From Bacteriovorax stolpii (lineage in GTDB: Bacteria; Bdellovibrionota; Bacteriovoracia; Bacteriovoracales; Bacteriovoracaceae): a DNA stretch of 64,000 nt. Positions 8,662 to 16,493 of the stretch are shown here, piece after piece. The stretch spans positions 1-64,000 of the forward strand of contig CAMASK010000001.1 of NCBI GenBank assembly GCA_945860895.1. Direction: 5' to 3'. The notes beneath the pieces were generated by a model. The model made no database searches. It saw nothing but the letters and a program-made list of their open reading frames with translations, and was not told where the DNA came from. Each line of letters starts with the position of its first letter. The first letter of the stretch is position 1. The position numbers were made by a program, and so were the translations under genes.

Positions 8662-10737
8662 ATGGAAGGATTCGTTTCAAAATTCAAATCCTTAACGCAA
8701 AATTCGGATGTGGTCATTGCCATCGGATTAATGATTGTCCTTGGGGTAATGGTTGTTCCTATTCCACCATTTCTGCTGGATTTGTTTCTTACGCTTTCTA
8801 TTGGAATTTCAGTCGCAGTTTTATTAACTGCAGTTTATTCTAAGAAGCCCCTGGATTTTTCAACTTTTCCAACTGTGCTTTTAATCACAACGTTATTTCG
8901 TCTATCACTTAACGTTGCATCAACCCGAAATATTTTGCTTCACGGCTCCAGTGACGGAACAGGAGCTGCCGGGGAAATCATCAAAGCTTTTGGTGATTTC
9001 GTCGTTGGTGGTAATTATGCCGTAGGTATTGTTATTTTTATCATCCTTGTGGTGATTAACTTTATGGTAATCACTAAAGGTGCTGGTCGAGTAGCCGAGG
9101 TTTCTGCACGATTCACTTTAGATGCAATGCCAGGTAAACAAATGGCCATTGATGCTGATTTGAATGCCGGATTAATTGATGAAAAAGAAGCTAAACGTCG
9201 TCGTACTGAAGTTGCACAAGAAGCAGACTTTTACGGGTCTATGGATGGTGCTTCGAAATTTGTACGAGGAGAAGCCATTGCGGGGATTTTAATTACTGCC
9301 ATTAACATGATCGGTGGGATTATTATTGGAGTTGCTCAGCAGGATATGAGTTTTTCTGATGCTGCTCAAGTTTTCACACTTTTAACTGTTGGTGATGGTT
9401 TAATCGCTCAGATTCCTGCTCTGATTATCTCAACTGCTGCTGGTATTATCGCCACTAGAAATTCCAACACTGATTCTCTGGGGACACAGGTAGGAAATGA
9501 ATTTAGTGCCAATCCAAAATCATTTTATATTACCGCCGCTTCACTTACCATTTTCGGCTTGATTCCAGGTTTTCCAGGACTTCCGTTCATAATGATGGGG
9601 GGACTGGTTGCCTTCACTGGTTTTAAGATTGAAAAGAATAAAGAACTTGCGAAAAGTGCCGCCAGTTCAAGTGCTGTGGAAGAGACAAAAGCTAAAGTCG
9701 AAACGCTTGAATCTCTACTACCTGTTGAATTAGTTCAACTTGAAGTTGGTTACGGAATTGTGAGTATAGTTGATGCTAAACAAAATGGTGACCTGCTTGA
9801 ACGTATCTCTCATATCAGAAAACAGTTTGCTGTGGATTGGGGAGTCATCATTCCTTCGGTACGCATTAAAGACAATCTGGAATTAAAGCCAGGTGGTTAT
9901 TCAGTTAAATTAAAAGGTGTTGAGATTGCTAAAGGTGAACTCATGCCAGATCACTTAATGGCCATGGACCCTGGGACTGTGATTGAGCAGATGGACGGAA
10001 TTGAAACGAAAGAGCCTGTTTTTGGTTTACCGGCGATATGGGTGACAGATGATCGCAAAGATGAAGCTCAATATAATGGTTATACCGTTGTGGATCTTTC
10101 AACAATTGTTGCGACTCATTTAACAGAAGTCTTAAAGACTAACTTAAGCGAACTTTTTGGACGTCAGGAGTTAGTGAAGGTTTTAGATAACTTTAAAGAA
10201 GAAAATCCTAAGATCGTAGCGGACCTAGTCCCTGATATAATGACTCTTGGGTCCGTTCTGAAAGTCCTTCAAAATCTTCTAAGAGAAGGTGTTTCAGTAC
10301 GCGATCTTCGGTCTATTTTAGAAACACTCGCTGAATTTGGAACATCCACTAAAGATACCGAAGCACTAACTGAATACGTTCGACAGTCCCTATACCGTTC
10401 TATTACAGAAAAAATTAAGAGCTCGGCCGGGGATGTTCCTTTGTTCACCCTTGATCGTGCTTTAGAAGAAACCGTCGCCAGATCGATTATCCATACCGAT
10501 CATGGAACACAATTAAACCTTGATCCAAAAGTGACTCAAACTATTTTGGCATCTTTAAATGAAAAGATTGAAGAAGCTACCTCTCAGGGGGAAAAGATGG
10601 TTGTACTATGTTCACCAGTCATTCGACGCCATTTCAAGAGGTTGACTGAAAAATTCATTCCCAACATGATTGTGGTGAGTCATAATGAATTAAGCCCCGA
10701 AGTTAATATTAGATCCCTCGGTACGGTGAGGTTATAA
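8662..10737 (+). CDS. flhA: Flagellar export protein FlhA
   Basis: FlhA forms the nonameric export platform that binds chaperone-substrate complexes and couples the proton gradient to export. The 691-residue protein has about eight N-terminal membrane helices and the FHIPEP signature containing RFTLDAMPGKQMAIDADLN near residue 150. The large cytoplasmic domain ends in SLGTVRL. Length and motifs are normal. Only 3 bases separate it from flhF. Confidence 0.97.
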   Translation: MEGFVSKFKSLTQNSDVVIAIGLMIVLGVMVVPIPPFLLDLFLTLSIGISVAVLLTAVYSKKPLDFSTFPTVLLITTLFRLSLNVASTRNILLHGSSDGTGAAGEIIKAFGDFVVGGNYAVGIVIFIILVVINFMVITKGAGRVAEVSARFTLDAMPGKQMAIDADLNAGLIDEKEAKRRRTEVAQEADFYGSMDGASKFVRGEAIAGILITAINMIGGIIIGVAQQDMSFSDAAQVFTLLTVGDGLIAQIPALIISTAAGIIATRNSNTDSLGTQVGNEFSANPKSFYITAASLTIFGLIPGFPGLPFIMMGGLVAFTGFKIEKNKELAKSAASSSAVEETKAKVETLESLLPVELVQLEVGYGIVSIVDAKQNGDLLERISHIRKQFAVDWGVIIPSVRIKDNLELKPGGYSVKLKGVEIAKGELMPDHLMAMDPGTVIEQMDGIETKEPVFGLPAIWVTDDRKDEAQYNGYTVVDLSTIVATHLTEVLKTNLSELFGRQELVKVLDNFKEENPKIVADLVPDIMTLGSVLKVLQNLLREGVSVRDLRSILETLAEFGTSTKDTEALTEYVRQSLYRSITEKIKSSAGDVPLFTLDRALEETVARSIIHTDHGTQLNLDPKVTQTILASLNEKIEEATSQGEKMVVLCSPVIRRHFKRLTEKFIPNMIVVSHNELSPEVNIRSLGTVRL

Positions 10738-10740
10738 AGA

Positions 10741-12279
10741 ATGTTCGTTAAGAAATTCGAAGCCGATACATTAGAGGAAGCACTCAAAGCAGTTAAATTT
10801 GAGCTGGGTCCTGATGCAATTATTCTTAAGACTATTACTAACAATGGTCTAAAAGGTGCGTTCAAGAAAAAGCGCATCGAGATTACGGCAGCAATCTCGG
10901 AAAAAAGTTTCGAGAAAAAAGCCAAGGTGGACAAAGTGCTAAACAATGACCAAAAAGAATCCCTTTATCAAAAACCAGCTTCTTCCATTAAGGAAACGAT
11001 TACCAAATATAATGGTCAGCCTGGCCAGAATTCAAATTCAGCTGGTTATGGAAGTATGGGCCTGAACAAAGTTGTTAATACTTTGGCAAAAGGTACTGCG
11101 AGTCTAGGTGATATCACTACTAAAACTTCATCTTTAATTAAAAATAGTCTGGATGATTTTTTAACAGATGGGGAAGAAACATCTGGATTTGATCTTGATT
11201 CAAGTGATGATGAGCCAATTACTTATTCTCGCTCGCAAAATCGTGGAAAATATTCTGAGCCCCCTCAGGAAAAACCGGCTCCACGAGCGTCGCCTTCCAG
11301 ACAGATGTCAGACGAGCAGGTTGAGTTCAATCAACGTCAGGCCCGGCCTCAAGCTGAAGCTCAACCAGTAAATACAGTGAGCCGTGATGCTTATAATGAG
11401 CTCAGGTCTGAACTAAGAACTCAACAACATAAAGTGGAACTTCTTGAACAAAAGATCATGGAGCTTTCTCAGAATTACCATTTCAATCAGAAGCATCTCA
11501 ATGAAGCCAAAGGTGTTTACCAGTTAAGAACTACGCTTAAAACTTTGGATGTTGATGAATCTCATATTCTTGATTTAATTAAAAAAGCCAATTATGAGCT
11601 ATCGAAAGAAGATCTGGAAAATCCAGATGTGATCTTTGAATTTGCACTTAAAGAAATGGCTGTATCCATCAATACAGCTATTCCATTATTTGCCAAAGTT
11701 GTTAACGGTGAGCCTGTAATTACTGTTTTAGTATCTGAGGCTGCTTCCGGTCAAAGCACCATGGGTATGAAAATTGCCGTGCTTAAAAAAGATGTGGTAG
11801 TGATTCAATACTTTCATGATGCTCAAAATAACGCCTCAACCGACTTTGCCGCTCAGGTTTTCGGGATTAAAGTCGAAAAAGTGCAAAACTTCTCAGAAGT
11901 GGTAGGTCTTTGTCGAAAAGCGACGGAAGCTGGCAAATCTGTTCTGGTGGATGTTCGCCTGAATAGCAAATTTAGCGATGAAACAAAAAAATTCGTTGAG
12001 ACGCTTAAGCGTGGTTTCCAATATGTAGAAGTCCTAGGCACACTTTCGGCAATTCATTCTGAACTTTATAATCGAAAAATTATTGCCCGATATAAGGACG
12101 TCGTAGACGGTGTTATAATTTCTCATGTGGATCTTTGCATGAATTTTGGGGCCCTTTTCAATATTCATAAAACCCATAACAAGTTACCTCTTAAATTCTT
12201 TGGAACAGGCCCGGTAGTTCCAGATGATATCGAAGGTGCGACGGCTGAAAGATTGATGTCAGGTCTCTTTCAGTTCTAA
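10741..12279 (+). CDS. flhF: FlhF-like flagellar placement protein with degenerate GTPase motifs
   Basis: FlhF is the SRP-type GTPase that marks the pole for flagellar assembly. The 512-residue protein opens with the FlhF B-domain (MFVKKFEADTLEEALKAVKF). A long Ser/Gln/Pro-rich linker (about residues 70-215) and an N-G-like domain follow. In the G domain the P-loop GPTGVGKTT is replaced by SEAASGQST (332-340). The DTAGRS motif becomes DVRLNSK (from 404), and TKLDE becomes SHVDLC (461-466). The C-terminal GTGPVVPDDIEGA is preserved. Nucleotide binding by the usual mechanism therefore looks lost, although the open frame and operon position argue for a functional scaffold. Confidence 0.88.
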   Translation: MFVKKFEADTLEEALKAVKFELGPDAIILKTITNNGLKGAFKKKRIEITAAISEKSFEKKAKVDKVLNNDQKESLYQKPASSIKETITKYNGQPGQNSNSAGYGSMGLNKVVNTLAKGTASLGDITTKTSSLIKNSLDDFLTDGEETSGFDLDSSDDEPITYSRSQNRGKYSEPPQEKPAPRASPSRQMSDEQVEFNQRQARPQAEAQPVNTVSRDAYNELRSELRTQQHKVELLEQKIMELSQNYHFNQKHLNEAKGVYQLRTTLKTLDVDESHILDLIKKANYELSKEDLENPDVIFEFALKEMAVSINTAIPLFAKVVNGEPVITVLVSEAASGQSTMGMKIAVLKKDVVVIQYFHDAQNNASTDFAAQVFGIKVEKVQNFSEVVGLCRKATEAGKSVLVDVRLNSKFSDETKKFVETLKRGFQYVEVLGTLSAIHSELYNRKIIARYKDVVDGVIISHVDLCMNFGALFNIHKTHNKLPLKFFGTGPVVPDDIEGATAERLMSGLFQF

Positions 12280-12344
12280 AAATGTTTGTTCCTTGATTCT
12301 TTAAGGCCCGACAGGATGTCAGGCCGTGCGGTTACAGGAGTTAT

Positions 12345-13226
12345 ATGCACAAGACCAGTGAGTGGTTGCTTTCTTTTAGTTCAAATCAGAATATTAAGTC
12401 TAATTCCAGATCTCTTATCAAAAATGGCTTCAGGCGATGTTCAAAAATTTCCATTACAGGTGGAAAGGGTGGAGTTGGAAAGACCTCAATTGCACTTAAA
12501 ACGGCAATGGAGCTGGCAAAATCAGGCTTTCGCACTCTTCTGATTGATTGTGATTCTAATCTTTCCAATACTGCTATTAAATTAGGTCTTCCTCTTGAAA
12601 ATAAGTTTGAAAAACTTCTTTCTGCAGAAGCAACCTTTGAAGAGATCATCATTCAACTTGGTAACTTTCATTTACTTCCCGCCTGTAACGGCTCGATTGA
12701 AGTTTTTGAATCAAGACTAAATTTTGATGAAATCATCATCGATATTATTAATTCACATGAGCACGAATATGATTATATTCTGCTTGATTGCCCTGCTGGT
12801 GTCTCCCGTGAAGCTCTGACTTTAAATGCTTTTTGTGATTATCGCTGGGTGATTGTAACCCCAGATAAATCTTCTATTACTGATTCTTATTCACTCGTTA
12901 AATTGCTCGCAAATCGCTTTGGCATTAAAGAAAACCATTTGATGGTTAATATGTATCAAAATGATAAACAATATCAAAAAGTAGTCTCTACCTTGAGTGA
13001 AACAATCGAGAATTTTCTTGGTTTAAGTACAAAAGTGCTTGGTGGAATCCAAAAATTGGAAGTTTCTGCCGAAGGATTTGATACTTTTTTCCTATCTGAA
13101 ACAAAAACTGAATGGCAGAAAAACTTCGTTAAACTTTTATATGGGTTCACCGAAAAAGATGGTGGACCGACGGCACTCCATAAAAACGGAAGTAGCCTGA
13201 TGGCCAATGAACAAGACGTTCACTAA
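12345..13226 (+). CDS. flhG: MinD/ParA-type ATPase FlhG (FleN/YlxH)
   Basis: FlhG controls flagellar number and position, normally by activating FlhF GTPase activity. The 293-residue protein has a deviant Walker A motif, GGKGGVGKTS, after about 40 residues. The switch-like LLIDCDSNLSN and Walker B DYILLDCPAG follow, all intact. The N-terminal segment before the P-loop lacks the DQAxxLR activator motif that FlhG uses on FlhF, matching the degenerate FlhF next door. Start chosen for CAGGAG upstream of the ATG at 12345. Confidence 0.92.
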   Translation: MHKTSEWLLSFSSNQNIKSNSRSLIKNGFRRCSKISITGGKGGVGKTSIALKTAMELAKSGFRTLLIDCDSNLSNTAIKLGLPLENKFEKLLSAEATFEEIIIQLGNFHLLPACNGSIEVFESRLNFDEIIIDIINSHEHEYDYILLDCPAGVSREALTLNAFCDYRWVIVTPDKSSITDSYSLVKLLANRFGIKENHLMVNMYQNDKQYQKVVSTLSETIENFLGLSTKVLGGIQKLEVSAEGFDTFFLSETKTEWQKNFVKLLYGFTEKDGGPTALHKNGSSLMANEQDVH

Positions 13227-13248: not shown

Positions 13249-14034
13249 ATGTCATCACTTACGGCCAAACTCAAGAACCTTAAAGATTACCGTTCAACCG
13301 TTGAACCAAAAGTAAAAGAAGAAATCATTCTTGAATACGCACCACTGGTACGTTACATCGCCCAGAAGATTGCTTCAAGACTTCCACCAAATATTGAACT
13401 CGATGATATGATTTCGTGTGGGGTCATCGGATTGATGGATGCGATCGAAAAATTCGATCCTACTCGTGATAATAAATTTAAAACATATGCTGAGTTCCGT
13501 ATTCGCGGTGCCATCCTGGATGAACTTCGCTCTCAAGACTGGGTTCCACGTTCAGTACGTGAAAAAGCTAAAGTTGTTGAGAAAGGTTATGCGAAACTTG
13601 AAAAAGATTTCGGTCGTCCGGCAACGGATGAAGAGATGTGTGTTCACCTTCAGTGCTCAATGGATGAGTTCCATGAACTTATCAATAAATCAAAATCAGT
13701 TTCTTTAATGAACATCGATGATGCAGCTGCCATGAGTAAAGGCGATAAGCGTTTGATGGTTTCTCTTATGGAAACTTCACGTTCGGCTAACCCTCAATCA
13801 GCTGTTGGATACAAGCATGCACAGGAAATCATCAAAGATGGAATTAAGTCATTGCCTGAAAAGCAGCGTCTGGTCCTTTCACTTTATTACTTCGAAGATC
13901 TGAACCTTAAAGAAATTGGCCAGGTTTTGGATGTCACTGAATCACGTGTCTCTCAGCTTCACACTCAGGCGATTTTAAAGCTTAAAGCGAAGCTCCGTAA
14001 TCAGTTCGAGTCTCATGAAGACATCGCCAGTTAA
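13249..14034 (+). CDS. fliA: Flagellar sigma factor FliA (sigma-28)
   Basis: This 261-residue sigma-70-family protein is of the FliA/WhiG type. Region 2 contains YAPLVRYIAQKIASRLP and YAEFRIRGAILDELRSQDW, followed by VPRSVREKA. A C-terminal region 4 helix-turn-helix contains LNLKEIGQVLDVTESRVSQL. It directs transcription of late flagellar and chemotaxis genes. It is the last gene of the flagellar block and is followed by an intrinsic terminator. No anti-sigma FlgM gene is seen beside it. Confidence 0.96.
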   Translation: MSSLTAKLKNLKDYRSTVEPKVKEEIILEYAPLVRYIAQKIASRLPPNIELDDMISCGVIGLMDAIEKFDPTRDNKFKTYAEFRIRGAILDELRSQDWVPRSVREKAKVVEKGYAKLEKDFGRPATDEEMCVHLQCSMDEFHELINKSKSVSLMNIDDAAAMSKGDKRLMVSLMETSRSANPQSAVGYKHAQEIIKDGIKSLPEKQRLVLSLYYFEDLNLKEIGQVLDVTESRVSQLHTQAILKLKAKLRNQFESHEDIAS

Positions 14035-14195: not shown

Positions 14196-16493
14196 ATGGA
14201 CTGGAAGAAGACCTTTAATCAAGGGCAGTGGGTAATCCACGGAATCTTTATTATTTCTGTATTAGTTGCAATTGGTTCTACACTCTTTGCATTCAGACTA
14301 AATCACTTACAGAGTACTGAAGAAGAGCAAATCATCAAGATCAATTCTGTAATCAAAGATCTTAAACAAGACAATAGTTTCGAGAAGATTGGTAAATATC
14401 TTTCATGGGCTCAGCCAGATAAGGCCAATGATAAAATGCGTGAACTGACTCAAAAAATTGCTGAAACTGAAGAAATGCTTGAAATAAAGGCAAGTAAAGA
14501 AGTGGGCCTAGGCCTCAGGACTTTCAATAAATTGATTAATAATAATACCGGCATGAGTAATCCAACAGATGCCCTAAAAGTTTTGAATCAGAAAATCAAA
14601 GCTCTTCATGCTGTGAGTGAATCGCAAAAATATAGAACGATCATTACTATCACTGAAAACATGCTGGAACGTACTGGCAGTTTAAACTCTAAAAACGTAG
14701 GCGGCTCAATTCAAGTAAGTTATTTGAAAACTGATCTTAAGCGACTAGAGCAATTGATTGAGGGTTCAACTCTGGATGAAAATGCTAAAAATGCATTGAA
14801 TAACCGTTTTCAATCCATGAAGTACGAAATGGATCTTTTAGAGAGTCTCAATTCTCAATCAAGAAATTTAAAAGTTCATATTAATCAATCTGCCCTGGCC
14901 CTTGGTCAATGGTTATTAGATGTAGAGAAAAAGGCAACTGAGATCAAAGGCATGCGGGCAGGAAAGCAAAATCAATTGATTATTATGCTAACTGGACTCG
15001 TAGCCTTCCTTATTTTGTCTTGGATTGGCCTTGCGTATTTGTTTAGATGGCAAAAGAATAAAATTTCCCTTCAAATGGAAATGGAAGTCAAAACGGTAAT
15101 TGAAAAAGGCATTATTAGCGATCAAAGGTATATGATTGATCATTATTCTGATAACACCCGTGATGAAATCGTAAGACTCCTTGATGAATTAAAAATTAAG
15201 TTAAATCTTGGAACCTTATTGCATGAGGGGTTACCGTTTGCAGGATGCATGATTGATTATAACTTTAAGCTTACCTGGTACAACAATCTCTTCCTTGATC
15301 AACTCTATTTGAGTGATGAAGAAGTAAGAAGTGATGCTTTTAATTGGGATTATGTTCGTGATTATTTAAATCTTGAAGAAGATCCAATTTATCAGGCCAT
15401 GGTCAACAAAATCGCCGGGATTTACCCTGTTAAAGTAAAGCAGGATGAGCTTACACCTGCTCAGCCTTACGAAATGTATGTAACACCTGTTTTAGAAAAT
15501 CGTGAAAGCAGAGTGATGGTATTCTTCTACCCATTAATTTCTGTTAAGGAAGCCATTAAAGAACAGGTTAATTTGACTGAAGCATTTATTCATAAATTTA
15601 TTAATCTTTGGGACCAAAATCTTTTGGATGAGGATGAACTCAGATTGATGGAGAAGAATTTTAAAAGCAATGACATGGATAAGCTATATCTTGACCTGCA
15701 TTCAATTCATGAGCGAGTTATTGCAGAGAAGTCAGAATGCATCTCGGCGATCCGCTCATTGGAAAAAGAAAATGAAGATTATTCTCATGCTCTTCAGCAC
15801 ATGCAAGAAATTGAGATTGAGAGAAAGTTGATTATTAAAGAAGAAATTAAAACGGCTAATGATCTGAGAAACTCATTTATTACTTCAATTGAGAAAAGTG
15901 AAAGTCTTCTTCACATCAATAAGACTATTATGCAACAGAATGATGATTACAAGAATGAAGCTCATCGTTTGCACATGGTTTCATTAGAAGCTTTGAAAAA
16001 AGGAAAGGAGTCCATGGAAATTCTCAATCAACTTGATAGTGTTAAAACAGATTACAAGAAACTTAAATTCGAATTAATGGAAGTTAAGGCAAAACTGATT
16101 TCTATGAATAACTCTCTTTTAGCTCAATTACCCCCTCTGGATGAGAACCAACAAAAAATTGCAACCAGATACAAAGATGAACTTGCCCGACTTGATTTCA
16201 ATGTAGCCACTCTTGATAAAAAGCTTACTCAATTGGATGTGCTATTATCCAAACTAAACATGATTCATGAAAAGCAGCCGGTAGAACAGACCGCTTTTAG
16301 TTTTCAAACTTCACAAAAAGATCATGAACTTCGTGAAGCTTTACTCGAGATTCAAAAAATTCTTAACCTAGAGGAGAATAAAATTCTCGATCATTTTCAA
16401 ACTTTGCATGGTCTTATAAAGAAAGAGATTAAACCCATTACGAATACTAATGCCTTTTCTCCTTCGATTGAAGGGGAAAATGTTCTCTCTTAA
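14196..16493 (+). CDS. Two-TM sensor-like protein with PAS-like domain and coiled coil, no output domain
   Basis: The 765-residue protein has a membrane anchor near residues 15-37. A largely helical segment (38-260), presumably periplasmic, and a second membrane helix (about 262-283) follow. A PAS-like domain lies around residues 340-450, containing GCMIDYNFKLTWYN. Some 300 residues of coiled coil rich in Glu, Lys and Leu come next. The architecture resembles a chemoreceptor or histidine kinase, but I see no kinase motifs, MCP signalling hairpin, GGDEF or phosphatase domain. It follows fliA after a terminator. Its stop directly abuts the next ATG (TAAATG), so it is coupled to the pseudouridine synthase gene. 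Confidence 0.7.
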   Translation: MDWKKTFNQGQWVIHGIFIISVLVAIGSTLFAFRLNHLQSTEEEQIIKINSVIKDLKQDNSFEKIGKYLSWAQPDKANDKMRELTQKIAETEEMLEIKASKEVGLGLRTFNKLINNNTGMSNPTDALKVLNQKIKALHAVSESQKYRTIITITENMLERTGSLNSKNVGGSIQVSYLKTDLKRLEQLIEGSTLDENAKNALNNRFQSMKYEMDLLESLNSQSRNLKVHINQSALALGQWLLDVEKKATEIKGMRAGKQNQLIIMLTGLVAFLILSWIGLAYLFRWQKNKISLQMEMEVKTVIEKGIISDQRYMIDHYSDNTRDEIVRLLDELKIKLNLGTLLHEGLPFAGCMIDYNFKLTWYNNLFLDQLYLSDEEVRSDAFNWDYVRDYLNLEEDPIYQAMVNKIAGIYPVKVKQDELTPAQPYEMYVTPVLENRESRVMVFFYPLISVKEAIKEQVNLTEAFIHKFINLWDQNLLDEDELRLMEKNFKSNDMDKLYLDLHSIHERVIAEKSECISAIRSLEKENEDYSHALQHMQEIEIERKLIIKEEIKTANDLRNSFITSIEKSESLLHINKTIMQQNDDYKNEAHRLHMVSLEALKKGKESMEILNQLDSVKTDYKKLKFELMEVKAKLISMNNSLLAQLPPLDENQQKIATRYKDELARLDFNVATLDKKLTQLDVLLSKLNMIHEKQPVEQTAFSFQTSQKDHELREALLEIQKILNLEENKILDHFQTLHGLIKKEIKPITNTNAFSPSIEGENVLS

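Follow-up and report, generated by a model that had tools for sequence, protein, structure and literature searches.

In its usual form, FlhF is a GTPase that positions the flagellum at the cell pole and works as a GTP-dependent homodimer. The window, by which we mean the whole 64,000-nucleotide stretch of the Bacteriovorax stolpii contig that was analyzed, encodes a degenerate form of this protein in part of a flagellar export-gate cluster with the gene order flhA-flhF-flhG-fliA, all on the plus strand. The flhA gene (8662–10737, +), a 691-amino-acid ORF identified as FlhA by FHIPEP, lies directly upstream of flhF in a conserved synteny. It is followed by flhF (10741–12279, +), encoding a 512-amino-acid FlhF with a degenerate SRP-type GTPase domain, and flhG (12345–13226, +), encoding a 293-amino-acid MinD-like ATPase with an intact deviant Walker A. 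Downstream are a fliA-type sigma-28 factor gene (13249–14034, +) and a gene for a 765-amino-acid membrane/coiled-coil protein that matches no Pfam family (14196–16493, +). Related loci also have flhF flanked by flhA and flhG, a neighborhood consistent with orthology. The nearest relatives were metagenome-assembled Bacteriovoracaceae, Bacteriovorax and Halobacteriovorax genomes, and the order to which they belong, Bacteriovoracales, is made up mostly of predatory bacteria.

The window FlhF scored 57.7 bits against TIGR03499, below the curated cut-off of 174.15, with the match covering residues 1–88; PRK14721 also matched the N-terminus. Synteny and the presence of the B-domain nevertheless ruled out that this is a different paralogue. 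The B-domain, a FliG-interaction-domain (FID)-like region spanning residues 1–60 (10741–10920, +), had a mean weighted conservation of 0.80, the highest in the protein, and its β-strand/helix pattern was present in the predicted model. At the other end, homology to the Pfam SRP54 GTPase domain (PF00448) reached 28.3 bits against a gathering threshold of 22.7, over residues 393–510 only, and alignment placed the retained G5/closing block FFGTGPVVPDDIE at 12196–12234 (+). The preliminary description of this DNA, made from the letters alone, had noted both of these regions as kept. A single-sequence PDB search with FlhF returned nothing beyond one match to the low-complexity linker. The AlphaFold model had a mean pLDDT of 70, with most G-domain blocks at about 80–93, and when it was compared with the PDB using Foldseek the top matches were SRP GTPases and FlhF (8r9r, TM 0.77; 2px3, TM 0.73, both by target). 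As modeled, the pseudo-G domain keeps the SRP/FlhF NG fold. A second, canonical flhF elsewhere in the genome had been named as grounds for rejecting the earlier interpretation, but a TIGR03499 search of the organism's own genome (94.6% complete) found none; the remaining hits were Lon and two proteins matching over the NG part only, which we took to be FtsY and Ffh.

Three loops of the GTPase domain are altered: the pseudo-P-loop (G1) SEAASGQST at residues 332–340 (11734–11760, +), with Gln338 in place of the catalytic lysine; the pseudo-G3 DVRLNSK at residues 404–410 (11950–11970, +), which retains Asp404 but has lost TAGR; and the pseudo-G4 SHVDLC at residues 461–466 (12121–12138, +), which has lost its lysine but has an invariant Asp464 and a nearly invariant Cys466. 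The coordinates, strand and loops given earlier were all exact, and the frame is open. Alignments to relatives and to the FlhF structure 2px0 set SEAASGQST on GxxGxGKT(T), DVRLNSK on DTAGR(N/S), and SHVDLC on TKIDE, ruling out the explanation that intact motifs had merely shifted. We then aligned 83 distinct FlhF sequences of the order, equivalent to about 49 effective sequences at 70% identity. All 83 carried glutamine for the P-loop lysine, so none has a canonical GxxGxGKT, and the first P-loop glycine was also replaced, by serine in 96% (weighted). The DTAGR consensus was lost, the G4 lysine was present in only 2 of the 83 sequences, and essentially the aspartates alone remained of G3 and G4. 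The expectation that the degenerate loops are fixed across a clade was therefore borne out. Over 85 sequences, Gln338 was encoded by CAA in 54 and by CAG in 31; as both codons are used, selection acts on the amino acid, and glutamine itself is maintained.

The degenerate FlhF was found in 119 of the 129 genomes of the order. Canonical TIGR03499 proteins, at E ≤ 1e-24, were found in 0 of these 129 genomes versus 193 of 240 other genomes of the phylum. The P-loop lysine (GK) was present in all aligned FlhF sequences from other families of the phylum, even in L067–L076, the family with the most divergent FlhF C-terminal block, and the outgroup L178 has GKT. At outgroup loci L155–L174, FlhF of the Bdellovibrionia type often lacks the G4 lysine (TGLDE and variants) with the P-loop lysine intact, and the accompanying FlhG is without DQAxxLR.

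Selection on the altered domain was estimated from congeneric pairs with finite dS. The pseudo-G domain gave dN/dS values of about 0.005–0.08, which are rough because dS was often near saturation, and in these pairs the G domain was far more conserved than the linker. By these comparisons, the pseudo-G domain is under strong purifying selection. Together with the match of its fold to SRP GTPases and FlhF, this conservation indicates a protein whose fold is maintained and whose site carries a single, fixed set of changes. A kept GTPase fold, lost nucleotide-binding motifs and a conserved sequence make it, at the level of sequence, a pseudo-GTPase, and we infer that the FlhF of this order works without a productive GTP cycle.

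FlhG presents the opposite picture at its ATPase site. GGKGGVGKT, the Asp pair and Walker B are all present in the window protein, as had been described, and across the order the deviant Walker A KGGVGKT, the Asp pair and Walker B form invariant columns, with one exception. This exception, L025 (G103), is the FlhG of one congener, which has SPGSGKT for GGKGGVGKT and lacks the W-L-x-S motif described below; the FlhF of that species has the usual features of the order. Toward the C-terminus, where FlhG proteins carry a membrane-targeting helix, helices are predicted at residues 256–280 and would be no more than possible candidates for it. In other species, a DQAxxLR motif ahead of the P-loop is the FlhG enhancer element that stimulates the FlhF GTPase. 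This motif was absent upstream of the P-loop in the window protein and in all 78 distinct FlhG sequences of the order (0/78), and it was present in outgroup families of the phylum, for example in L137, L150 and L154. The N-terminus is, however, not simply stripped of its activator, as a reading based on the absence of DQAxxLR would have it. A conserved (T/A)S(E/D)WLxS occurs there in 74 of the 77 distinct FlhG sequences of the order with KGG, mostly 22–36 residues before the P-loop, and in the window it falls in an N-terminal helix at residues 2–13 (12348–12383, +), at the place of DQAxxLR. The segment is predicted to be helical with low confidence, and the motif was not seen among the outgroup FlhG N-termini inspected. 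Its position, the same as that of the enhancer helix, suggests that the W-L-x-S helix may be a substitute contact in place of DQAxxLR.

The preliminary description had read the changes in FlhF and FlhG as a coupled loss of both halves of one interaction. DQAxxLR is likewise missing from FlhG in families where the FlhF P-loop is intact, namely Bdellovibrionia and several others; the two losses are therefore uncoupled and did not occur as one event. On an FlhA tree, built as a quick tree with a midpoint root, the lysine-to-glutamine change took one step and the loss of DQA three, and the order formed one clade with 100% support. The outgroup distribution of FlhG and these step counts rule out coupled loss. 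The earlier interpretation as a whole therefore stands for the clade-fixed loops, the single flhF and the unshifted motifs, and fails for the coupling.

The description of a polar-placement system also proved incomplete, as FlhF persists in genus g28, of the same family as the window genome, without detectable flagellar genes among those searched. Four g28 genomes were available, of which G066, G068 and G069 are 94–99% complete and G067 is 88% complete. FlhA, FliG and flagellin had no match in any of the four, and an FlhG ortholog was not found there, the matches there being no stronger than those of other ParA/MinD-type paralogues. Within the order, FlhF without FlhA occurs in g28 only. FlhF with the glutamine P-loop is retained in three of the four species (L108 3009–4136, −; L109 2744–3871, +; L107 3041–4081, +), where its gene adjoins a FliA-type sigma factor and a homologue of the 765-amino-acid membrane protein of the window (E 2e-13). 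Upstream of flhF, and overlapping it by 4 bp, is a gene for a 169–173-amino-acid protein (L108 4133–4642, −; L109 2226–2747, +; L107 2535–3044, +) that is largely confined to g28; the 169-amino-acid form had no convincing Pfam or PDB family match. In the fourth species, G067 (contig 22, L245/L242), flhF is missing between the small upstream gene and the sigma factor on a continuous contig. This absence, along with the possibility that g28 lost its flagella recently, would fit a passing relic, in which case FlhF would have no non-flagellar function and would otherwise be merely an adapted flagellar placement protein. We consider this unlikely, because G068 and G069, although widely diverged (dS above 1), share 92–93% identity in the B, N and G domains (93% in the G domain) against 48% in the linker, and because flhF forms a tight cluster with fliA and the membrane-protein gene and overlaps a gene largely restricted to the genus. 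Kept under selection in a genus with none of FlhA, FliG, flagellin and FlhG detected, FlhF probably has a function outside flagellar assembly.

These observations favor a reading in which the FlhF of this order is a pseudo-GTPase acting as a constitutive tether, with numerical control by FlhG and probably an additional non-flagellar role; we put its probability at roughly 0.6. The N-terminal FliG-interaction-like domain would capture cargo, and the pseudo-NG domain would dock on a partner at the pole or membrane without a GTP switch. Numerical control would be left to FlhG, predicted to be a still-active ATPase, which may contact its partner through the new N-terminal W-L-x-S helix. Both polar tethering and a partner contact through W-L-x-S are proposals of this model, which, with a GTP-independent tether and control by FlhG, appears to be the most economical. 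In Shewanella putrefaciens, HubP is bound by the NG domain whatever its nucleotide state, and FliG is a partner of the FID (PMC11236974), so tethering is possible in the absence of a switch. In Pseudomonas aeruginosa, the FlhF-FliG interaction is stabilized by GTP binding (PMC12713375), and a GTP-free tether would thus need compensation. A search for FipA/DUF2802 gave no matches in the order, and none in the controls either.

Contrary to what had first been claimed, not every nucleotide-handling feature has gone. The claim holds for the lysines and DTAGR, but the G3 aspartate (D404) persists in 82 of 83 sequences, the G4 aspartate (D464) in 83 of 83, the G5 TG with its glycine (G490) in all, and the P-loop Gly-x-[ST] (G337, [ST]339) in nearly all. 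The persistence of these residues leaves room for weak or altered binding of a nucleotide or other ligand. The site could then be altered and not dead, with SE..GQ[ST] and the G3 and G4 aspartates binding a guanine nucleotide or another ligand weakly without hydrolysis, and FlhF being slow or constitutively loaded. The retained positions and the invariant Gln338 do look as if the pocket holds something; the joint loss of the G1 lysine, the G4 lysine (kept in 2/83) and the DTAGR switch, together with the first P-loop glycine, makes this reading doubtful in our assessment. Very improbable, and already disfavored, is a gradual relaxation in which the GTPase decays across Bdellovibrionota with this order as the end point and FlhF of little importance: Bdellovibrionaceae and relatives already have TGLDE or similar in G4 and an FlhG without DQAxxLR, and G067 lacks FlhF between its neighbors on one contig, but a pseudo-motif invariant over about 49 effective lineages, a very low dN/dS and retention in 119/129 genomes are not how relaxed genes behave.

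Set beside known systems, the pseudo-GTPase tether favored here shares with FlhF (TIGR03499; PDB 2px0, 2px3, 8r9r) the B-domain/FID, the NG fold, the G5 block and the flhA-flhF-flhG-fliA synteny, and differs in that the P-loop lysine, DTAGR and the TKxD lysine are replaced throughout the order (57.7 versus 174.15 bits). Its FlhG has the MinD-type ATPase core, gene position and short N-terminal helix before the P-loop of FlhG/FleN/YlxH proteins, but the conserved (T/A)S(E/D)WLxS in place of their DQAxxLR helix. Bdellovibrionia resemble the order in an FlhG without DQAxxLR and in an FlhF often without the G4 lysine, whereas their FlhF has the P-loop GK and their FlhG lacks W-L-x-S. Eukaryotic pseudoGTPases such as p190RhoGAP pG1/pG2 and degenerate septins have similarly lost their motifs while their GTPase fold serves for interactions, though they belong to unrelated GTPase classes, and none of those compared is SRP-type or bacterial.

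A 2025 review on the diversification of FlhF and FlhG treats FlhF as a GTP-dependent switch (PMC12826062), and our search of open-access papers turned up no description of an FlhF that works free of nucleotide, nor any of the Bacteriovorax FlhF. The need of FlhF for GTP varies by species, and a tether role was recently found (PMC12826062, PMC11236974, PMC12713375). An order in which the GTPase site has been removed and the protein is strongly selected offers a natural separation of scaffold from switch function, and its sequence conservation suggests that FlhF works here as a scaffold and not as a switch. If nucleotide binding is absent, the SRP family would include a pseudo-GTPase fixed across a whole clade, and the finding also suggests a function for FlhF outside flagella.
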